Source: Myxococcota bacterium
GTDB lineage: Bacteria > Myxococcota_A > UBA9160 > SMWR01
Length of the DNA stretch: 64,000 nt
Direction of reading: 5' to 3'
NCBI GenBank assembly: GCA_039030075.1
Contig: JBCCEW010000021.1
Span: 1-64,000, forward strand
Position 1 is the stretch's first letter. Every line of letters begins with the position of its first letter. The position numbers and the translations under genes are program-made. The notes beneath the pieces are model-generated. The model saw only the letters and a list, made by a program, of their open reading frames with translations. It was not told the DNA's origin and made no database searches. Shown here piece by piece: positions 42,372 to 52,062 of the stretch.

Positions 42372-43118
42372 CTAGCGAAAGAGGTCTTGGGACGGGTCGC
42401 GCAGGGTGTCGGCGAGTCGGCCGTCGCCTTGAGGCGTGCGCCCCGTGATCCACACGGCCGGGATGCCGGCGTCCTTCACCATCAGCAGTCCCGCTGCGGC
42501 CGCGAGCTGATCCGCAGTCGCGGTCGTCGTGACCTCGAGCGGGCGGCCGGTCCAGTCTTCGCCGCCGCGCAGGTCCTCGATGGGCGCAATGCCCGCGCTC
42601 CCGAGGGCGACGTCGACGAGTCCTTCGCGCCAGGGTCGGCCGAAGGTGTCGCTGACGATCACCGCGACGTCTTTCGCGCCGCCGGAGAGCAGCCCGTCGC
42701 GCAGCGCCCGCGCCGACGCGTCCGGGTCCTCGGGCAACAGAATCGCCGTGTCGGCGGCGCCGGCGTTCGAGAGATCGACGCCGGCGTTCGCGCACACGAA
42801 GCCATGGCGGGTCTCGCTGATCAGCACGCGATGGCCGCGCCGGACGACGCGCGCCGACTCGCGCAGCACCACCTCGACGTGGCGCGGATCCTTGTCGTCC
42901 TCGCGCGCGATGCGCTCCGCCTCGGCCGACGGGGTGACGTCCGCCAGCGCGACGATGCGACCCTCGGCCTTCGACACGATCTTCTGGCAGACGACCAGCA
43001 CGCCGTCGGACAGCGAAACCCCCTGGGCGCCCGCCGCGACGCGCAGCAGCGCCGCGAGGTCGTCACCAGGCTTCACCGCGGGCACCTGCTCGAGGGCGGT
43101 CAGCACGAGCGGATTCAT
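42372..43118 (-). CDS. cofE: Coenzyme F420-0:L-glutamate ligase
   Basis: A 248-residue protein with the F420 ligase pattern: LVVCQKIVSKAEGR, the RHGFVCANAGVDLSN segment, and the VIVSDTFGRPWREGLVDVAL core. It adds glutamates to F420-0. It has only the CofE domain, without the C-terminal nitroreductase-like domain of the FbiB fusion. The ATG overlaps the cofC stop as ATGA. It is the last gene of a leftward cofD-cofC-cofE series. Confidence 0.93.
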   Translation of the reverse strand: MNPLVLTALEQVPAVKPGDDLAALLRVAAGAQGVSLSDGVLVVCQKIVSKAEGRIVALADVTPSAEAERIAREDDKDPRHVEVVLRESARVVRRGHRVLISETRHGFVCANAGVDLSNAGAADTAILLPEDPDASARALRDGLLSGGAKDVAVIVSDTFGRPWREGLVDVALGSAGIAPIEDLRGGEDWTGRPLEVTTTATADQLAAAAGLLMVKDAGIPAVWITGRTPQGDGRLADTLRDPSQDLFR

Positions 43119-43744
43119 GAGCGCTCCCAGACTTCGAGGATGGCGCGCGTGGCGGGGCCGAGGCTTTCGACGTCCAGCGCCGAACGCGCGTCTTCGACGA
43201 AATCGATGTCGATGGCCAGCGAGGGCAGGGTGCATTCGACATACGGCACGCCCGCCGCGAGGGCCGCATCGCGGTGGCGCGCGGCGCTGTCGCGGCCGAA
43301 GCGCGCCGGGATCACGTCGGGCGGTCGGCGAAACAGGGCGGAGGTCCCGCCGTCGTTCGAGGGCGCGAGGCTCACCCCGTGTTCCGGACCGGCTTCCAGG
43401 AGTGCGTGGATGTCGTCCGGCGCCGCCGCCGCGACGTCGCCGAGGACGACCAGCACCCCGTCGCTGGGCCCGGCGAGCTGATGGCAAGCGGCTTCGATCG
43501 CCGCGTTGAGCCCCGGATCGTCGCGCAGCAGCGGCTCGGCCCCCGCCTGCTTCGCGGCGTCGGCGACGCGGGCATCGGGGGTGGTCACGGCGACGCGGTC
43601 CAGTTCGGGGACGGCACACAGGCAGCGCACCAGATCGCTCATCATCGCGAGGGAGAGCGCCTCGAGTTCTTCGCGCGCGCGCTCGGGGAACATGCGCGAC
43701 TTCGCGTCGTCGAGACCCTTCACCGGAACCACGGCGGAGATCAC
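43115..43744 (-). CDS. cofC: F420 precursor guanylyltransferase CofC
   Basis: A 209-residue nucleotidyltransferase with the start MISAVVPVKGLDDAKSRM and the acidic metal motif VLGDVAAAAPDD. CofC/FbiD activates 2-phospholactate, phosphoenolpyruvate or 3-phosphoglycerate with GTP; which of these applies here cannot be read by eye. GTG start, overlapping cofD by four bases. Confidence 0.9.
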   Translation of the reverse strand: MISAVVPVKGLDDAKSRMFPERAREELEALSLAMMSDLVRCLCAVPELDRVAVTTPDARVADAAKQAGAEPLLRDDPGLNAAIEAACHQLAGPSDGVLVVLGDVAAAAPDDIHALLEAGPEHGVSLAPSNDGGTSALFRRPPDVIPARFGRDSAARHRDAALAAGVPYVECTLPSLAIDIDFVEDARSALDVESLGPATRAILEVWERS

Positions 43745-44697
43745 GCGAGCGACCGCGCGAGTGCGAGCGCTTCTTCGGAGAGGGACTGGGCGATCTCGGG
43801 TGTTCGCATCAGGGTCTCGGTGACCCGCGTCGCCGGTCCGGTGGCGCCGATGGCGGCGGCGAGGTCCGCGTCGCGCTGGTCGATCACGTACCCGTCGAGC
43901 AGGTCGCCGTAGAAGCGCGCCACGCCGGCGGCGGACACCTCGTGGCCCAGCCCGCGCAGCAACCGATCGGCCGGGCCCTTGACCGGCGCGCCGCCGATGA
44001 TCGGGGACACGGCCACGACCGGGGCTCGGGCGGCGCGGACGGCGTCACGGATGCCGGGTACCGCGAGGATCGGTCCGATCGAGACCACCGGGTTGCTCGG
44101 CGCGAACAGGATCACGTCGGCGTCGGCGAGGGCCTCGAGGACGCCGGGCCCGGGCGTCGCGACTTCGGCCGCGGAGAGGTCGACCCCCACCACTTCGTCC
44201 GGCGCACCGTCTCGCGCCAGGTACTCCTCGAAGTGGAGCTGCCGTCCGCCGCGCAGCGACACCAGGGTGGGGCACGGGTCCTCGGACATCACGAGGATGC
44301 GTGTCGCAACGCCCAGGGCCCGGCGCAGGCCGTCGCTGATCTCGCCGAGGCCGACACCCCGCGCGAGCTCGCGTGTGCGGTGGTGGGAGTGGGCGAAGTC
44401 TGCGTCGCCGAGTCGGAACCAGGTCTCGTAGCCGAGGGTTCCGAGCGCATCGATCACCGACGTCGTGTCGCCTTCGAGGCCGTAGCCGCGCGAACGATTC
44501 ACCCGACCCGCGAGGGTGTAGGTCACGATGTCGACGTCGGGCGATACGTGGACGCCGTAGAACTCCATGTCGTCGCCGGTGTTCACGATCGCCGTGACCT
44601 GCTCGGGCGGAACGGCGCGCACCACGCCCGAAAGGAACCGGGCGGCTCCCACGCCCCCGGCGAGGACGGCCACGCGCGGCGGAGCGGCCGTGGTCAC
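43741..44697 (-). CDS. cofD: 2-phospho-L-lactate transferase CofD
   Basis: A 318-residue enzyme that joins the activated phospho-acid to Fo. It starts at GTG 44697 and has the family motifs VLAGGVGAARFL, IVNTGDDMEFYG, DTTSVIDALGTLGYETWFRL and FAPSNPVVSIGPIL. With cofC and cofE it completes the steps after Fo, while Fo synthase (cofG/cofH or fbiC) is not in the window. The start overlaps the stop of the DUF4124 gene as GTGA. Confidence 0.94.
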   Translation of the reverse strand: MTTAAPPRVAVLAGGVGAARFLSGVVRAVPPEQVTAIVNTGDDMEFYGVHVSPDVDIVTYTLAGRVNRSRGYGLEGDTTSVIDALGTLGYETWFRLGDADFAHSHHRTRELARGVGLGEISDGLRRALGVATRILVMSEDPCPTLVSLRGGRQLHFEEYLARDGAPDEVVGVDLSAAEVATPGPGVLEALADADVILFAPSNPVVSIGPILAVPGIRDAVRAARAPVVAVSPIIGGAPVKGPADRLLRGLGHEVSAAGVARFYGDLLDGYVIDQRDADLAAAIGATGPATRVTETLMRTPEIAQSLSEEALALARSLA

Positions 44698-45233
44698 GGG
44701 GTCGGCGCGTCGCTGGCGCCGCGCTGCTGGAGCAGATCCTGCAGCTCGGCCTGACGGCGCGGGAGTCGTTCGGCGACCGCCCGGAACTCGTCGGTCGAGC
44801 GGAGCTCCTTCGCGCGCTCGGGATCGCTGATGGCCTCTTCGAGCCAGCGCTCGTCGGCGGCGATCGCGGTCTCGAGCGCGAGGATGCGCTCTTCCAGCGC
44901 GGGGTCGGGCGCGGGCGCGTCGACCGGGGCCGCGGCTTCCACGGCGGGCAAGGCATCCGAGTACTTCGCGTCCTCGTCGGTCACGACGTTCCGACCCAGC
45001 GGACGCGCACCCCGCGCGAGTGCGGCGTTGTGGAAGGCGTCGTGGCCCGGCTCGATCTCGCGCACGCGCTCCTGGTAGGCGTCGGGGATGCGATCGCGGT
45101 CGGTCGTGTAGCGAACGTTCCCGTCCTCGTCCGACCACTGGTAGACGGGGTCGCGTGGACCTGCCGGGGAGGCAGACGCGGTCCCAACGAGGGCGATCGC
45201 GAGGGCGAGAGCAGCGGCGCGCGAGGTGTTCAC
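44694..45233 (-). CDS. DUF4124 domain protein, exported
   Basis: A 179-residue protein from the GTG at 45233, which gives a clean signal peptide (SRAAALALAIALVGTASA). A reading from 45269 adds twelve residues ahead of it. Residues 30-55 hold the DUF4124 motif VYQWSDEDGNVRYTTDRDR. The C-terminal half is Glu/Ala-rich helix, probably coiled coil, and contains no Cys. DUF4124 proteins are exported envelope proteins of unknown function. It is the first gene of the F420 operon by a four-base overlap, which may be only shared transcription. Confidence 0.8.
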   Translation of the reverse strand: MNTSRAAALALAIALVGTASASPAGPRDPVYQWSDEDGNVRYTTDRDRIPDAYQERVREIEPGHDAFHNAALARGARPLGRNVVTDEDAKYSDALPAVEAAAPVDAPAPDPALEERILALETAIAADERWLEEAISDPERAKELRSTDEFRAVAERLPRRQAELQDLLQQRGASDAPTP

Positions 45234-45419
45234 GGGACCGAGTCTTGGAGAGGCCGACCGGAGCGTCAAGCGACGGCCGGGGACCGCCGTTCACGCCGCC
45301 GCGGTCCGGCCCGGTCACGCCGCGGTCGGGGCCGTTCCGCGGGGCGCCGCCAACCCCGCGATCCGGCTCGACTGCGGCGGCACGCAGCCCTCGGCACACG
45401 CCTTGCTCTTCCGCGGCGC

Positions 45420-47081
45420 ATGCATGCGCGCGGTGGTAAGCAGGCGAGCCGACGGGTGTCGCACCGACGGGTCCGGTGCTCCCGCCGCATCCGGCGATGG
45501 AGCTGCGGGATCGCCCTCGCTGGGCTGCTCGTCGACCCGGCTGCGGGCGCATCTCCCGACGCGAGCGTCGCCTGGGAACGCAGGGCGCTCCCGGCCGGCC
45601 TGGAGCGCGCGACGGCCGTCGCACTCGTGGTGCCGACCGACGCATCCCAGGCGGCGGCCTGGGCCATCGGGGGGGATCGTGGGGTGGCGGTGGGTGGGCG
45701 CGGCATGGAGGTGGCGCAGGCGGGCCCCGCGGGCCGGGTGCTGTCGCGGGGGCCGGTCCGGTTCCTGCATTTCGACGCGGCCACCCCTGCGCTCTGGATC
45801 GCCGGCGCGACGGGGTTGTTGCGCGCAGACGGGTCCACGATTCGCACCGAACGGGTCGGGACGGGCGAAGCCGCGCGGGTGGTGCACGCCATCGACACCC
45901 AGGGCGACCGACTCGCCGTCGCGACCGACGCCGGCGTGTTCTGGCGTCCCACACCCGATGCCGCCTGGCGCTTGCTCCAGGCGCTTCCATCGGGCGCGGT
46001 GACGCGCGCGATCTGGGATGCCCGGGGTGCCGGGATCTGGGCGCGTGTCGAGGGCGCGCTGTGGTGGGGTGGCACCGACGGAACCCGCCGCCGCGTCGTC
46101 TGGTCGGGCGTCGCCGAAGGCGCGGGCGTCCTGGACATCAGCCGCAACGCTTCCGGGGAGCCGCTGGTCTTGTGGTCGCGCGCGATCGCCGAACGCGTGG
46201 CCGGACGCTGGCGACACGTACCCCTGGACCTGCCGCCCGGCACTCAGCCCGCGTGGCTCCGTGCTTCCGCCGGCCGCTATTGGCTGGCCACGGATGCGGG
46301 GCTGCTCTCGTCCGCGCAGCTCGACGGACCTTGGCTGCGTGCACGGGCGCCCCTCGGTCACGTCGCCGTGTCGGGCCTGGCGGCTGCGGGCGATCGCGTC
46401 CTCGTCGCGCTGCGCTACGGCGTGTGGCTCGGCCGTGTCGGTGAAGAAGAGTCGCCCCGTGTCGGCCCCGGTCCCGCCGCGGTTCGCGTCGAACTGCAGC
46501 GCGTCGGCCTGCCGTCCTCGGATCCACCGATCCGAGCCGTCCAGCGGCGCGCACTCCGCTACGCCGGGCTCGAGCCCGACCATCTCGCGTCGCTTCGGCG
46601 CGCCGCCATGCAGCGAGCCTGGCTCCCCGAAGTGCGACTGCGGCTCGGCCACGGCCGCGATCGCGACCGGCTCCGGGACCACGACGAGGCCTATCTCTCG
46701 AGCGGAAGACGCACCCTGATCGACCGGGAGCGCCGCAGCGGCGAGGGCAGTGACGCCTCGCTGGAACTCTCCTGGGATCTCGCGGGCCTGGTCTACGAGC
46801 CCGAGAGCCTGGACGTGTCGCGCGAAGCGCGCCTCGTGATCCAGCTGCGCGATGACGTCCTGGACGAGGTCAACCAGCTCTACTTCGAACGCCAGGCGCT
46901 GCTCGGTGAGCTGGTGCGGGGAGCCGCCGAGGACCCCGCGCGGGTGCGTCTGCGTGCGGCCGCGCTCGCCGCCGCCCTCGACGCCTGGACCGGCGGTTGG
47001 TTCAGCTCGACATCGATCCCGGGCGTGGCCCCGGATCGCGATTCCGGTCCCGCCCACCCCGCACAGGAAGACCTCCCATGA
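45420..47081 (+). CDS. Exported beta-propeller protein with helical C-terminal domain
   Basis: A 553-residue protein from ATG 45420; a GTG at 45456 is the alternative. The Arg-rich leader RRVRCSRRIRRW precedes a hydrophobic segment with an Ala-x-Ala-like end, a plausible signal peptide. Residues 40-370 show repeating blades of the form TDAGVFWRPTPDAAWRLL and TDAGLLSSAQLDGPWLRA, as in propeller sensors. The C-terminal 170 residues contain PEVRLRLGHGRDRDRLRDHD, LELSWDLAGLVYEPE and DDVLDEVNQLYFERQALLGE, a helix-rich domain I have met in deltaproteobacterial envelope proteins but cannot name. It overlaps the PEP-CTERM gene as ATGA. Confidence 0.7.
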   Translation: MHARGGKQASRRVSHRRVRCSRRIRRWSCGIALAGLLVDPAAGASPDASVAWERRALPAGLERATAVALVVPTDASQAAAWAIGGDRGVAVGGRGMEVAQAGPAGRVLSRGPVRFLHFDAATPALWIAGATGLLRADGSTIRTERVGTGEAARVVHAIDTQGDRLAVATDAGVFWRPTPDAAWRLLQALPSGAVTRAIWDARGAGIWARVEGALWWGGTDGTRRRVVWSGVAEGAGVLDISRNASGEPLVLWSRAIAERVAGRWRHVPLDLPPGTQPAWLRASAGRYWLATDAGLLSSAQLDGPWLRARAPLGHVAVSGLAAAGDRVLVALRYGVWLGRVGEEESPRVGPGPAAVRVELQRVGLPSSDPPIRAVQRRALRYAGLEPDHLASLRRAAMQRAWLPEVRLRLGHGRDRDRLRDHDEAYLSSGRRTLIDRERRSGEGSDASLELSWDLAGLVYEPESLDVSREARLVIQLRDDVLDEVNQLYFERQALLGELVRGAAEDPARVRLRAAALAAALDAWTGGWFSSTSIPGVAPDRDSGPAHPAQEDLP

Positions 47082-47722
47082 AGCATCGAACCGTGACCGC
47101 GTGGATGCGCGGCAGCATCACACTCGGGTGTGTCATCGTCGGCGCTGCGGGCGCACCCGCCGCGCCCCTGATCTCCGAGGTGTTCTACGACGCCTCGGGG
47201 TCGGATAACGGCAAGTCCTTCGTCGAGCTCTACGCGCCGGCGGGGTTCGTCCTCGACGGTCTGGTCGTCGAGGGCATCAACGGCGCCAACGGCCAGGTGG
47301 CCGGCAGCGTCACGCTCTCCGGCACGGTCGGCGCGTCGGGGCTGTTCGTGTTGGCCGACGACCAGGGCGACGGGTCGAGTCTGGTGCTCGGCGCCGACCA
47401 GATCGCGAACTTCGACTTCCAGAACGGACCCGACTCGATCGTTCTCCGGGACGACATGGGTGTGCTCGACGCCCTGGGCTACGGCGACTTCGCTGGCGGC
47501 GCGGTCTTCGCGGGAGAGGGCACTCCTGCTCTCGACGCCCCCGCCGACTCAGCGCTCGCCCGCGTGTTCGCCGATCTGGACACGGACGACAACGCGACGG
47601 ACTTCGAAGTGGCGATGCCGACGCCGGGCGCGGCCGCCTTCGCGGTTCCCGAGCCTGGATCCGGGTGGTTGCTCGGTCTGGGGCTCGCCGCGCTGGCCTT
47701 CCCGCGCAGGCGAAACCGCTAG
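47078..47722 (+). CDS. Lamin-tail domain protein with PEP-CTERM sorting signal
   Basis: A 214-residue exported protein. A signal peptide is followed by a lamin-tail-like (LTD) domain (LISEVFYDASGSDNGKSFVE, then LYAPAGFVLDG). The C-terminus is a full PEP-CTERM signal: VPEPGSG, a hydrophobic helix LLGLGLAALAFP and RRRNR. That signal is normally cut by an exosortase and anchors proteins for surface or matrix export. No exosortase gene is in the window. AGGAAG lies ahead of the ATG, and the start overlaps the propeller protein's stop. Confidence 0.85.
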   Translation: MKHRTVTAWMRGSITLGCVIVGAAGAPAAPLISEVFYDASGSDNGKSFVELYAPAGFVLDGLVVEGINGANGQVAGSVTLSGTVGASGLFVLADDQGDGSSLVLGADQIANFDFQNGPDSIVLRDDMGVLDALGYGDFAGGAVFAGEGTPALDAPADSALARVFADLDTDDNATDFEVAMPTPGAAAFAVPEPGSGWLLGLGLAALAFPRRRNR

Positions 47723-47830: not shown

Positions 47831-48457
47831 ATGGACATCCACCGCGTCTATCGACCGCTCCTGCGTCGGTCTCGCCGGCGTCGCATGCAGCGTTTCGCCG
47901 AACGCTTTCGGCCCGACGCCGCGACGCGGATCCTCGACGTCGGCGGCACCGCCTTCAACTGGGAATTCCTCGCCGAGCGGCCCGAGGTGACGCTCCTCAA
48001 CCTGGCCTCGGGTGACGAGGCCTTGCCCTCGCGATTCTCCCGGGTGACTGCCTCGGGGGTCGCGTTGCCCTACGCCGATGCGAGCTTCGACATCGTCTTC
48101 TCGAACTCGGTGATCGAGCACGTCGGCGACCTCGAGGCCCAGCGCGCGTTCGCGGCCGAGCTGCGGCGGGTCGCCCCGCGCGTCTGGGTCCAGACCCCCG
48201 CCCGCGGGTTCTTCTTCGAGCCCCATCTCTTGACCCCGTTCTTCCACTACCTCCCGCGGCGCTGGCAGCGGCGGTGGGCCCACTGGGGGACGGTCTGGGC
48301 CTGGCTCACCGGCGCGAGCCGGGAGCAGGCGGCGCGCTTCGTCGATGGGACCCGGCTGCTCGACGCGGCCGAGTTCGCGTCGCTCTTCCCGGATTGCACC
48401 CTCCAGCGGGAGCGGTTCCTGGGCTGGACGAAATCCTACGTGGTCGTCCGGGATTGA
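47831..48457 (+). CDS. Class I SAM-dependent methyltransferase
   Basis: A 208-residue enzyme. The SAM motif is ILDVGGTAFNWEFL (about 35-48), and the acidic and post-II segments ADASFDIVFSNSVIEHV and FAAELRRVAPRVWVQ match the Methyltransf_11 family. The substrate is unknown. I use ATG 47831; a longer start at 47747 would run through the terminator hairpin and is unlikely. The 224 bases after the gene, to 48681, hold no recognised feature. Confidence 0.88.
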   Translation: MDIHRVYRPLLRRSRRRRMQRFAERFRPDAATRILDVGGTAFNWEFLAERPEVTLLNLASGDEALPSRFSRVTASGVALPYADASFDIVFSNSVIEHVGDLEAQRAFAAELRRVAPRVWVQTPARGFFFEPHLLTPFFHYLPRRWQRRWAHWGTVWAWLTGASREQAARFVDGTRLLDAAEFASLFPDCTLQRERFLGWTKSYVVVRD

Positions 48458-48681
48458 GGCGGCGGCCGGGCGTGCGGGCGGATCGTGCCCCGGGGGGATC
48501 GCTCAGGTTGCAGCCCCAAGCGCCCGAAACGAAGCGCGATGAGGGTTTGGTGCGCACCGTCACGCAGCGCGCCCGCCTGCGGCGTGGAGCCGTCCTGGTG
48601 GGGGGCGCATCGGTTCGGTCGACAAGCCCGGGCCGGCACGGGAAACTGGCGCTTCGCACGAGACGCGGCTGGGGGGCTCGC

Positions 48682-49254
48682 ATGATCACGGGAGCGAACA
48701 CGAACGTCCGCTACCGGGGCATCCAGTTCCACGTCCAGACCGAGGACAGTGGTCGCTCCAACCCTCACATCATCAGTCACCTCTACCACGGTGGCACGAT
48801 CCTCGGTTCGCAGAAGACCGACTACTCGGAACACCTGGATTCCGATGAGTTGATCCTCGTCGTGCGCGGCCTGATCGATCAGCAGCACGTGGCGATGGTC
48901 GAGAAGCTGCAAGCCGGCGGCTTCGACGACGTGATCGCCGAGCGTCTCGGGGAAACGGCCGCGGAAGCCGGGTTCGCCGCGCCGAGCGAGGTGTCGAAGC
49001 CCGACACCGAGCCCGAGCTCGATGGGCCGCTGCCGCCTCCCCAGCAGACCGAGGCCGACACAGAGGTGGATCACGCCGAGCGTCCCCAGGCCGGCTTCGG
49101 AAGTGCCGAACCCCAGCGTGGTTTCGGTGAAGGGATCATGGGCGCCGAGAAGCCGCTCGACGAGGTGATCCTCGACTACCTCGCCGAGAAGGCACGCGCG
49201 CGCGGTCCGGAGCGCGACTCGGCTGCCGCGCGCAAGATCCGCTCGGGAGGGTGA
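48682..49254 (+). CDS. Unknown conserved protein, first gene of the ftsEX operon
   Basis: A 190-residue protein with GGGGGG ahead of its ATG. The N-terminal 85 residues look highly conserved: MITGANTNVRYRGIQFHVQT, SNPHIISHLYHGGTILGS and a helix VRGLIDQQHVAMVEKL. I associate this pattern with a short unknown family in myxobacteria. The second half is Pro/Glu-rich, then a helix PLDEVILDYLAEKAR. No signal peptide or membrane helix is seen, so it is cytoplasmic. Its TGA overlaps the ftsE GTG. A regulatory role in division or in the FtsEX complex is plausible but unproven. Confidence 0.75.
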   Translation: MITGANTNVRYRGIQFHVQTEDSGRSNPHIISHLYHGGTILGSQKTDYSEHLDSDELILVVRGLIDQQHVAMVEKLQAGGFDDVIAERLGETAAEAGFAAPSEVSKPDTEPELDGPLPPPQQTEADTEVDHAERPQAGFGSAEPQRGFGEGIMGAEKPLDEVILDYLAEKARARGPERDSAAARKIRSGG

Positions 49255-50003
49255 AGGCCGCGCTGCAACGCTTCTGGGGCGGGCGCGGCCAGGCCGAGCC
49301 CCGCGCCGGCATGGGCGAAGCGGCAGCGCAGCTCTTCCACGTCTCGAAGTCCTACGTCGCCGGCAGCTACGCGCTGCGCGACGTCACCCTCGAGTTCGCG
49401 CGCGGCGAGTTCGTGTTCCTGACCGGGCCGAGCGGCGCCGGCAAGACCTCGCTGCTGCGCCTGGTGTTCGCAGAGGAGCGCCCCAGCGAAGGGCAGATCG
49501 TCGTCCTCGGGCGCAACGCTTCACGCTTGTCGCCGCGTTCGGTGCCCGCCCTGCGGCGCCGCATCGGCGTGGTCTTCCAGGACTTCAAGCTGCTGTCCCG
49601 GCGCACGGTCGAAGAGAACGTCGCGGTGGCGCTCGATGTCGTGGGCGTCCCGCGTCGCGCGGCCCGAGCGCGCGTGTTCTCGGTGTTGAAACAGGTAGGG
49701 CTGCATCACCGCCGCTATCAGAACCCGCTGTCGCTCTCGGGTGGCGAGCAGCAGCGCGTGGCGATCGCGCGCGCGCTGGTCAACGAGCCCGACATCCTGC
49801 TCGCAGACGAGCCCACGGGAAACCTCGACCCCGATCTGACCCTCGAGATCATGGACCTGATCGCGAGCACCGCGACGCGCGGGACCGCCGTGATCGTGGC
49901 CACCCACGACCACAGCGTGTTGCAGCGCTATCGCAAGCGCACGATTCGCCTCGAGGGTGGCAAGATCGTCGACGACCGCCCCGCGGCCGGGATCTCACCG
50001 TGA
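49251..50003 (+). CDS. ftsE: Cell division ATP-binding protein FtsE
   Basis: A 250-residue ABC ATPase (GTG 49251; ATG 49311 would give 230 residues, the more usual size). Walker A is GPSGAGKTS, the signature [13 protein letters not shown] and Walker [13 protein letters not shown]-loop and FtsE-specific motifs ([14 protein letters not shown]) are present. With FtsX it uses ATP to control peptidoglycan hydrolases at the septum. The 20-residue N-terminal extension overlaps the upstream gene. Confidence 0.95.
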
Positions 50004-50905
50004 TCGCCCCTCTGGGCCGCGCCGTCTATTTCCTGCGCACTGCGCTGCGCGGGTTGGCGGCGACGCCGGGGACGGCGGTCACGGCGACGCTCACGATCGC
50101 CGTGGCGCTGCTCCTGATCGGTGTGTTCGCGCTGCTCCTGCTCAACATGCAGCGACTGGTGACGGACTTCGGCGAAGCGCTGCAGGTCACTGCCTTTCTC
50201 GAGCCCGGGCTCGAGGCGAAGGAGCGAGATGCGTTGTTGGCGAAGGCGAACGCGCTCGACGGTGTCGAGCGTGCGCGGCTCGTCACCGAGGACGAAGCGC
50301 TCGAGCGCTTTCGCAGCGGGGTCGGGCGCGGCTTCGATCTGCTCGAGGGACTGGAGTCGAATCCGCTTCCCGCGTCCCTCGAGCTGACGCTCGCGTCGGA
50401 GCTGCGCTCGGCGGCGGGCATGGAGCAGATCGCCGAGACGGTGCGTGGCTGGCCCGGGGTCTCCGAGTTAGGGAACAGCGGCGCCTGGGTCGAGGGCTAT
50501 GTGCGCGCGATCGGCCTGGTGCGTGGCGTCGCGATCGGGCTCGGAGGCATCCTGGCCCTGGCCACGCTCTTGATCGTCGCCAACACGATCCGCCTGGCCG
50601 TGGTCTCGCGGCGCAATGAGCTCGAGATCCTGGCGCTGGTGGGTGCGTCACGTGGCTTCGTGAACACCCCGTTCCTGATCGAGGGCGCGTTGCAGGGTCT
50701 GTGCGGCGGATTGCTCGCATGGGCCACGCTGTACGGCCTGTTCCGCCTGGTGCTGCCGAGCTTCGAGTTCGGGCTCGCGCTGCTGCTGGGAGGCGAGTCG
50801 CCCCGCTTCTTCGAGGGCAGCGAGGCGGCGGGGCTCTGGGCCGGCGGCATGTTGCTCGGGCTGATCGGTTCCTCGCTGGCCGTGACCGCCGAGGGTCGAC
50901 GGTGA
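50000..50905 (+). CDS. ftsX: Cell division protein FtsX
   Basis: A 301-residue membrane protein with four helices: one near residues 25-50, a periplasmic domain to about 170, then three helices at the end (GVAIGLGGILALATLLIVAN, FLIEGALQGLCGGLLAWATL, LWAGGMLLGLIGSSLAV). This FtsX layout sends conformational change from FtsE to the periplasmic activator. GTG start overlapping ftsE; its own stop overlaps the EnvC-like gene. Confidence 0.95.
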   Translation: MIAPLGRAVYFLRTALRGLAATPGTAVTATLTIAVALLLIGVFALLLLNMQRLVTDFGEALQVTAFLEPGLEAKERDALLAKANALDGVERARLVTEDEALERFRSGVGRGFDLLEGLESNPLPASLELTLASELRSAAGMEQIAETVRGWPGVSELGNSGAWVEGYVRAIGLVRGVAIGLGGILALATLLIVANTIRLAVVSRRNELEILALVGASRGFVNTPFLIEGALQGLCGGLLAWATLYGLFRLVLPSFEFGLALLLGGESPRFFEGSEAAGLWAGGMLLGLIGSSLAVTAEGRR

Positions 50906-52062
50906 AGCGCGCCACCCGCGCCATGGGGGTGGGACTGGCCGTCCTGGTGGTGGCGACTTCACTCGGCGCCGAGACTGATCTCGAGCGGCTGCGCGGTGCG
51001 ATCGACGCGAGTCGCGACCGCGTCGCGGCGTTCGAAAGCGAGGAGCGCGGTCTGCTCGAAGCGATCGAGGCGATCGACGAGAGCGCGGAGCTGCTGCGCG
51101 TGGAGGCGCGCCGCGCGAAGCAACAGGCGCAGGACATGCAGGAGGCGCTCGGCGCGGCAGAGTCCAACGCGGCGGACGTGCTGGCGCGGCTGGCGAAGCT
51201 CGAGGCGTCGCTCTCGTCGCGCGCCGTGGCGCTCTACCGCGCGGGCGAGCTCGGTGCGGTCCGCATGCTGTTCGGGTCGAGGGATCTCGAGCAGTTCTTC
51301 AGCCGCGTGCAGACCCTGCGCTTCCTGGTCGAACACGACAGCGCGCTGATCGCGGCGCACCGCGAGGAATCGCGCGCCCTGCTCGAAGCCCGGCGCCGCG
51401 TGGCCGAAGCGAGTGAAGACGCACGGCTCGCCGAAGAGACGCTGGCCGAGCGCACCGCGGCATTGGCGACCGAGCGTGAGCGCAAACGCGAACTCGCGCG
51501 TCAGCTGTCGCGCAATCGGGCGCTCGAGCGTTCTGCACTCGGCGAACTCGAGGTCGCCGCGCGCGCGCTCGAGGAGACCGTCTCCGCGTGGGGGGAGCGC
51601 ACCCAGGCCGCAGTGCCGGTCGTCGACGGGCCGGCCTTCACGAGCCTGGCGGGGAAGCTCCCCGACCCGGTCCGAGGCAAGCTGGCCGGGCGCTTCGGCA
51701 AAGTGGTGGACCGGGCGTCGCGAACCGCGACCTTTCGCAAGGGTGTGCGCTGGAGCGCCGCGCGTGGCACGCCGGTGCACGCAGTGGCCGCCGGACGCGT
51801 CCGTTTCGCCGGGCGCTTTCGCGGCTATGGGAACGTCGTGATCCTCGACCACGGGGAGGACCACTTCACCGTCTCGGCGCATCTGGACGAGGTGGCGGTC
51901 GGCCTGGGCGAGAACGTCGCGGCCCGGGAGCGGATCGGCGCGGTAGGAGACAGCGGGTCTCTGGACGGGACCCAGCTCTATTTCGAGGTACGCCGCGGGG
52001 CCGAGGCGCTGGACCCGGCCAGCTGGCTGCGCGCGCTCGGCGGGCGCCGGGCCAAGCGGTAG
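50902..52062 (+). CDS. EnvC-like murein hydrolase activator (degenerate M23 domain)
   Basis: A 386-residue exported protein starting at GTG 50902. The signal peptide is followed by a long coiled coil (about 30-230) and a LytM/M23 domain (about 280-386). The metalloprotease residues are largely lost: the first His/Asp site reads RKGVRWSAARGTPV, and the final HxH site reads LYFEVR with Tyr for His. This is the EnvC pattern: an activator of amidases that is itself gated by FtsEX, not a hydrolase. The operon order (ftsE, ftsX, this gene) supports it. Confidence 0.9.
   Translation: MKRATRAMGVGLAVLVVATSLGAETDLERLRGAIDASRDRVAAFESEERGLLEAIEAIDESAELLRVEARRAKQQAQDMQEALGAAESNAADVLARLAKLEASLSSRAVALYRAGELGAVRMLFGSRDLEQFFSRVQTLRFLVEHDSALIAAHREESRALLEARRRVAEASEDARLAEETLAERTAALATERERKRELARQLSRNRALERSALGELEVAARALEETVSAWGERTQAAVPVVDGPAFTSLAGKLPDPVRGKLAGRFGKVVDRASRTATFRKGVRWSAARGTPVHAVAAGRVRFAGRFRGYGNVVILDHGEDHFTVSAHLDEVAVGLGENVAARERIGAVGDSGSLDGTQLYFEVRRGAEALDPASWLRALGGRRAKR

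Follow-up and report, generated by a model that had tools for sequence, protein, structure and literature searches.

The stretch of DNA that was analysed (the window, 64,000 nucleotides) carries two overlapping genes which would make, with a probability of roughly 0.55, an outer-membrane oligomer, that is, a channel with periplasmic propellers, and a surface lamin-tail protein as its partner or cargo. The first gene encodes a beta-propeller joined to a C-terminal domain that resembles one TolC-type repeat (half-TolC), and the second encodes a lamin-tail-like protein with a PEP-CTERM tail. Together they may represent a type of outer-membrane assembly that has not been described before. The features are:

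45420..47081, + strand: propeller and half-TolC gene, 553 amino acids, open frame from ATG 45420 to TGA 47081
45567..46439, + strand: beta-propeller, residues 50-340, about seven blades (AlphaFold, Foldseek)
46524..47018, + strand: C-terminal domain, residues about 369-533, probable single OEP/TolC-type repeat (hhalign, Pfam OEP in relatives, AlphaFold)
46629..46772, + strand: predicted outer-membrane beta-hairpin, residues 404-451, with a charged/polar loop (AlphaFold, alternating hydropathy)
46800..46919, + strand: long helix, residues 461-500, containing the most conserved stretch, LRDDVLDEV.QLYFER (alignments, AlphaFold)
47078..47722, + strand: lamin-tail-like PEP-CTERM gene, 214 amino acids, ATG 47078 to TAG 47722
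47153..47485, + strand: lamin-tail-like domain, residues 26-136 (PF00932, E 2e-4, below cut-off)
47642..47719, + strand: PEP-CTERM tail, residues 189-214, with VPEP, a hydrophobic helix and RRRNR (PF07589, TIGR02595)

The propeller protein and its C-terminal domain

Residues 50-340 of the first protein form about seven strand groups in the AlphaFold model (counted by eye), with pLDDT mostly above 90. The ring of four-stranded blades that defines a beta-propeller was found with AlphaFold and Foldseek, and the top Foldseek rows are propellers, virginiamycin B lyase first and sensor propellers of the BT4673 type also among them. The propeller of the initial annotation is thereby borne out. The Pfam families found in 67 relatives at E 0.1 are Reg_prop (21), VPS10 (16), PSII_BNR (12) and BNR (12). 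For the protein itself, searches at E 1 of Pfam, NCBIfam and the PDB sequences returned nothing, so that no named family for the whole protein was found in these three collections. Its propeller fold is shared with periplasmic sensor propellers (Reg_prop, BT4673-type) and with the BNR/VPS10/YCF48 types; unlike the sensor propellers, it is without a kinase or other signalling domain and carries an outer-membrane-type repeat. GTG 45456 is an alternative possible start of the gene. The leader-like start, read by eye, makes the protein look secreted.

The C-terminal domain had been described as helical and impossible to name. It resembles instead a single repeat of the TolC/OEP type, in which helices flank a beta-hairpin, and the assignment as a single OEP-type repeat is fairly secure, the models and profiles giving good but not final confidence. 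The structure prediction proposed in the initial annotation gave an element order like that of an outer-membrane factor (OMF) repeat. The full-protein model has a helix at 386-401, strands at 404-426 and 429-451, and helices at 461-500 and 506-524. The order helix, helix, strand, strand, long helix, helix is the same in the full-protein model (mean pLDDT 82.6, 67 sequences) and in the model of the domain alone (78.5, 36 sequences). The strands differ in length, 23 residues in the former and 10 in the latter, where they cover just 404-413 and 442-451 and the loop has low confidence.

When 36 domain sequences were compared by hhalign with 23 OEP repeats from the window's order, the probability was 88.9 and the score 44.9 over 97 columns, a span that takes in the long helix and the two strands. 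Of an initial 32 OEP repeats, nine had been dropped because their loci were cut. Sixty column shuffles of the OEP alignment scored at most 17.8, the reversed alignment 17.6 and the propeller part 8.7. The probability was 20 for the 19 Omnitrophota-side rows alone and 90.5 for the other 17 rows. The Pfam family OEP (PF02321) was matched at E 10 or below by 6 of 27 domain members and by 9 of 36 (best E 2.2e-4), and was the commonest family, the next being matched by 3 of 36. Only 5 of the 67 full-length relatives matched OEP at E 0.1, and the window protein itself gave no Pfam OEP match. A profile of 27 domains found no PDB sequence at E 10.

The two strands show a pattern that fits an outer-membrane hairpin, with hydropathy alternating along 405-410 and 446-454. 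Averaged over the 36 sequences, hydropathy in strand 1 is 3.9, 3.8 and 1.5 at positions 405, 407 and 409, and -1.6, -2.2 and -2.4 at 406, 408 and 410. In strand 2 one face has 3.9, 3.6 and 3.5 (448, 450 and 454), the other -1.0, -1.0, -1.1 and -3.5 (447, 449, 451 and 453). One face is thus polar or small, with an invariant Trp 452 on the other, and an invariant Pro precedes strand 1 in the domain alignment.

Foldseek with the domain model found nothing at E below 0.001; its 27 rows, with probabilities of at most 0.23, comprise 14 TolC-type chains and 10 phage portals. Counted as TolC-type are 5azo and 5azs, titled only as P. aeruginosa membrane protein, which we take to be Opr channels. VIA-align superposed one half of TolC-type chains on 149-170 of the 199 residues, with Z 4.7-5.2 and rmsd 5.8-7.0. 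Its top row, tied for the highest Z, is a phage portal (Z 5.2) that covers 62 residues. A common helix arrangement also gives values of this size (Z near 5, rmsd 5.8-7.0).

A TolC chain consists of two repeats with four strands, and the OMF trimer forms a 12-stranded barrel; OMF proteins act together with an adaptor in the periplasm and a transporter in the inner membrane. The window protein has one hairpin per chain, and the second repeat expected of an OMF member is not found, residues 50-340 being a propeller in the AlphaFold model. Shared with TolC/OprM (Pfam OEP, PF02321) are the order of elements in the repeat, the profile similarity and the amphipathic strands; in contrast to TolC/OprM, the repeat is joined to a propeller and has a lamin-tail gene as neighbour. 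The OMF repeat described in section 6.2 of PMC8277102, a helix, two strands, a long helix and a helix, matches the order in the model. The long helix has 40 residues, compared with 67 in OprM (PMC8277102).

The lamin-tail-like protein and conservation of the pair

The frames of the two genes overlap, as stated in the initial annotation, and share the 4 bases ATGA. The lamin-tail identity of the second protein is a sub-threshold match. The LTD family PF00932 scored 22.1 bits, under the cut-off of 34.3, and for this reason the protein is called lamin-tail-like here; a scan of the whole genome for LTD at E 0.001 found none. Bacterial LTD proteins likewise have this domain in an exported protein; the window protein differs from them in falling below the Pfam cut-off and in being tied to a half-TolC gene. 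The start, read by eye, is leader-like, and the protein looks exported. The PEP-CTERM tail already noted was confirmed by PF07589 (23.4 bits, cut-off 20.7) and TIGR02595 (19.7 bits, cut-off 16).

The surface export proposed for the pair had been made to depend on an exosortase in the genome (5.76 Mb, 55 contigs). Four exosortase matches were found on other contigs, two of them over the TIGR02602 cut-off. The genome also has 67 PEP-CTERM matches over cut-off, two of them only with neighbours in frame. The second protein is therefore one of many PEP-CTERM proteins, and is unusual in keeping a fixed neighbour. It shares with the PEP-CTERM/exosortase system the tripartite tail and a genome with exosortases and dozens of PEP-CTERM matches, but differs from other PEP-CTERM proteins in being kept beside one neighbour across the order, and in having lamin-tail counterparts elsewhere with lipobox-like starts. 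The features of PEP-CTERM systems used here are those given in PMC1569441, which also names exopolysaccharide genes in the genome.

P[EQ]P occurs within the last 60 residues in 47 of 56 rows of relatives; among these rows are three repeated loci, a further one with an open end, and some fragments. An exosortase was detected at E 0.001 in 54 of 60 genomes, in 49 over cut-off. Exosortase and the lamin-tail orthologue occur together in 46 genomes, exosortase alone in 8, the lamin-tail gene alone in 3 and neither in 3. This co-occurrence is weak (Fisher p 0.07), and the lamin-tail gene was not found to depend strictly on exosortase. Among draft genomes with no exosortase detected, G032 (L012/L036) retains a lamin-tail gene whose product has a VSEP tail, and G036 and G040 have VPEP tails. 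In G037 (L021/L041), also with no exosortase detected, the propeller gene is present and the lamin-tail gene absent. Because of the weak co-occurrence, and because the lamin-tail neighbour in other families is lipoprotein-like, PEP-CTERM would be one solution for the anchor and not the core of the system.

Of the 60 genomes searched, 50 have a homologue of the propeller protein (own genome included) and 52 a match to the lamin-tail protein, so the two frames are not chance; 49 of the latter were accepted as orthologues, and the remaining 3, weak matches with E 1e-4 to 3e-6, were not. Both genes occur in 48 genomes and neither in 9, joint absence being due in part to gaps in draft assemblies. 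Only the propeller gene was found in G001 (a fragment) and G037, and only the lamin-tail gene in G028. Co-occurrence, proposed earlier as a check, holds for the propeller and lamin-tail genes and is weak for exosortase. The lamin-tail gene lies directly downstream of the propeller gene in 51 of 53 clade loci; these are the 56 window-side loci (titles mostly Myxococcota or Deltaproteobacteria) less three with too little downstream sequence, L147-L150 being outside the 56. The two loci without an adjoining lamin-tail gene are L099 and L119, the latter apparently the G010 contig, which is equal to it in length and has its lamin-tail gene elsewhere. Conservation of the 4-base overlap was rejected: with start codons picked by a script, just 13 of 51 loci show it.

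Among 20 larger regions from relatives, 18 contain a lamin-tail match and 19 a homologue of the frame at 43741-45990, the one with the CofD-like gene; an FtsE match is present in only 15, one of them (L038, G017) out of order. The neighbourhood is less telling in the window's order because the pair sits in this conserved block. G017 (L038) keeps the pair together without most of the usual block genes, and in L045 several kilobases part the pair from ftsE. On the minus strand at 42372-45269, divergent to the pair and likewise conserved in this order, are likely F420 genes, presumably CofE/CofC/CofD, and a DUF4124 protein. At 48274-52062 on the plus strand there is a conserved protein with a YRGIQFHVQTED motif, followed by ftsE-, ftsX- and envC-like genes (named by eye), an arrangement conserved in many of the order's regions; we take FtsEX, beside the EnvC-like gene, to be an ABC system. 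As a clue to cell division the ftsEX-envC link is weak, given that the synteny is order-wide and that outside the order different genes flank the half-TolC gene.

The half-TolC domain outside the order

In a set of 282 genomes from the window's phylum, 190 have a match to the C-terminal domain. Among named genomes a scan detected it on the window's side and in at least 20 loci titled Omnitrophota/Omnitrophica, Kiritimatiellales, Pontiellaceae or Lentisphaerae (L125-L144), and the Omnitrophota-side loci inspected likewise couple it to a propeller. L125 and L137 have in common, by eye, an HTH-cupin-like regulator upstream in divergent orientation. The first alignment left out L006, L032 and L033 of 35 loci, and A1 used 27 of the remaining 32. 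From the 77 loci L071-L147, the exclusion of L072, L096, L116 and L145 (and of the fragments L148-L150) left 73, of which 66 and the window make up A2; A3 consists of 35 loci, hand-picked for spread, and the window. In the domain tree the Omnitrophota-side rows form one well-supported group and the window-clade rows another of lesser support (93/80), and the C-terminal domains of upstream propeller genes lie on very long branches. Five upstream-gene rows were dropped from this tree as too short, and its A/B labels misassign L224, L225 and L228.

Outside the window's class many loci have a two-gene form, in which a propeller gene whose end weakly matches the domain is followed by a half-TolC gene of 200-290 amino acids, which consists of the domain only or has an HhH domain ahead of it. 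The N-terminal HhH domain was found in L210, L211, L212, L215, L216 and L147, with Pfam HHH_3 confirmed only for L210, L211 and L147; this HhH_3 domain is presumably ComEA-like. A guaA-like gene follows the HhH half-TolC gene in L211, L212, L215 and L216. In two f18 loci (L230:863-1378 and L232:794-1411) the half-TolC gene is preceded by a short gene with no Pfam match and no propeller, which by eye looks like a second bare beta-hairpin. With two genes, each pair of proteins would supply four strands, as many as a TolC chain.

A lamin-tail protein is encoded directly after the half-TolC gene in 8 of 36 loci outside the window's order (L210-L245): all five f18 loci examined (L223, L229, L230, L232 and L233; more f18 genomes match the domain), two of three in f27 (L213 and L214, none at L219) and the single f40 locus (L220). 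Pfam LTD was found in all eight, over cut-off in six and below it in L229 and L233. A lipobox-like Cys seen by eye makes these eight likely lipoproteins; the lipoprotein profile was built from the same eight proteins that it found and tests for further ones only. In the sister family f12, of the same class as the window, a PEP-type relative comes next at L224, and ftsE instead at L225. No lamin-tail gene adjoins the domain in 27 of the 36 loci, some of which have short flanks (at most about 1.5 kb each side for L230-L245). Among the 20 loci L210-L229, six have guaA downstream (read by eye), and a PilZ-domain gene or prfB (by eye) is found in others listed. The two lamin-tail profiles found none in 20 Omnitrophota-side loci, whose flanks extend no more than about 3 kb in either direction. 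Other classes have many lamin-tail matches (1 to 47 per genome in 43 of 45 searched), and Pfam-detectable LTD occurs in 15 of 40 genomes of the window's order. Direct adjacency in three families nevertheless looks unlikely by chance, on an informal estimate, because there are a few dozen lamin-tail genes among several thousand.

A putative assembly and its alternatives

The surface or matrix export set of the initial annotation is retained as regards the conserved pair, the exosortases and the many PEP-CTERM proteins, but is now read as an outer-membrane channel or scaffold with a surface partner. Both proteins would reach the periplasm, judging from their leader-like starts. The hairpin of the TolC/OEP-type repeat would fit the outer membrane with its helices pointing into the periplasm, which agrees with the model and the sequence pattern. 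Since each chain gives two strands, compared with four per TolC chain, several copies, most simply six, would close a 12-strand barrel, and the propellers would form a periplasmic collar. The tail motif and the exosortases in the genome suggest that the lamin-tail protein is sorted to the surface by its PEP-CTERM tail; its anchor would depend on exosortase processing in the window's clade and elsewhere is likely that of a lipoprotein. The conserved neighbourhood makes it a likely partner of the half-TolC protein, and as partner or cargo it might be passed through the assembly or held on top. Gene order, its conservation, the likeness of the domain and the strand pattern are what was observed; export, membrane insertion, oligomer number and contact with the lamin-tail protein, like the pore and the function of the assembly, are put forward here as what we infer.

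The hairpin might anchor the domain in the outer membrane with no open pore, giving an oligomeric scaffold that would display the propeller towards the periplasm and arrange the surface lamin-tail protein. This alternative is possible, if less than probable: helices of 40 residues leave little of the OMF tunnel, no efflux or type 1 adaptor gene was noticed by eye beside the pair, and the propeller type is usual in sensors (Foldseek). However, on the inner face of the two strands the residues are small or polar, as those lining a water-filled barrel are, and the closest profile by hhalign is a channel family. A rather improbable view, the least favoured of those considered, takes the C-terminal domain as a soluble helical dimerisation module whose hairpin is a periplasmic beta-arm, with the OEP likeness due to convergence of long amphipathic helices. 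The weak Foldseek scores, the matches to phage portal helices and the low model confidence of the hairpin loop agree with it, but the hhalign match spans both strands and the long helix at a score far above the shuffles, and a likeness of helices alone would not yield the strand alternation or the invariant Pro before strand 1.

The two proteins might also be unrelated, both exported and brought together by synteny in a conserved block flanked by F420 genes and ftsEX-envC. A large part of this block is shared throughout the order, the propeller protein of Omnitrophota-side genomes lacks lamin-tail neighbours, and guaA (by eye) rather than LTD is downstream in six of the 20 loci L210-L229, with ftsE next in L225. 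We consider this unlikely, as the G017 pair lies outside the block and, in three families where the other neighbours differ, a lamin-tail gene again stands immediately after the half-TolC gene. The distribution in genomes (48 with both and 9 with neither, against 2 and 1 with a single gene) also speaks against it, allowing that assembly gaps remove neighbours together.

If the channel reading is true, lamin-tail surface proteins gain a defined outer-membrane partner; to our knowledge their role in these bacteria is unclear. No description of this gene pair was found in the open-access literature on half or single-repeat TolC proteins and on lamin-tail proteins with exosortase or ComEC, and no report of a natural single-repeat member of the OMF/TolC family. 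The structural repeats of OMF channels are described as products of a gene duplication (PMC8277102), and multi-chain barrels are discussed, in PMC6340704, as possible ancestors of outer-membrane proteins, efflux barrels being a separate group. A single-repeat family would make the assembly before duplication testable, or show how an OMF can shrink. More tentatively, and with considerable doubt, single-repeat TolC relatives might build channels from twice as many chains, resemble the state before duplication and serve a lamin-tail surface protein, and in some versions the cargo could be DNA. A hint of DNA in some families comes from the HhH_3 domain and metallo-beta-lactamase neighbours, neither of which was seen in the window's pair. 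The metallo-beta-lactamase-fold protein (Pfam Lactamase_B), encoded directly after the lamin-tail gene at L213:6966-8084 and L214:2428-3651, reads ComEC-like by eye.
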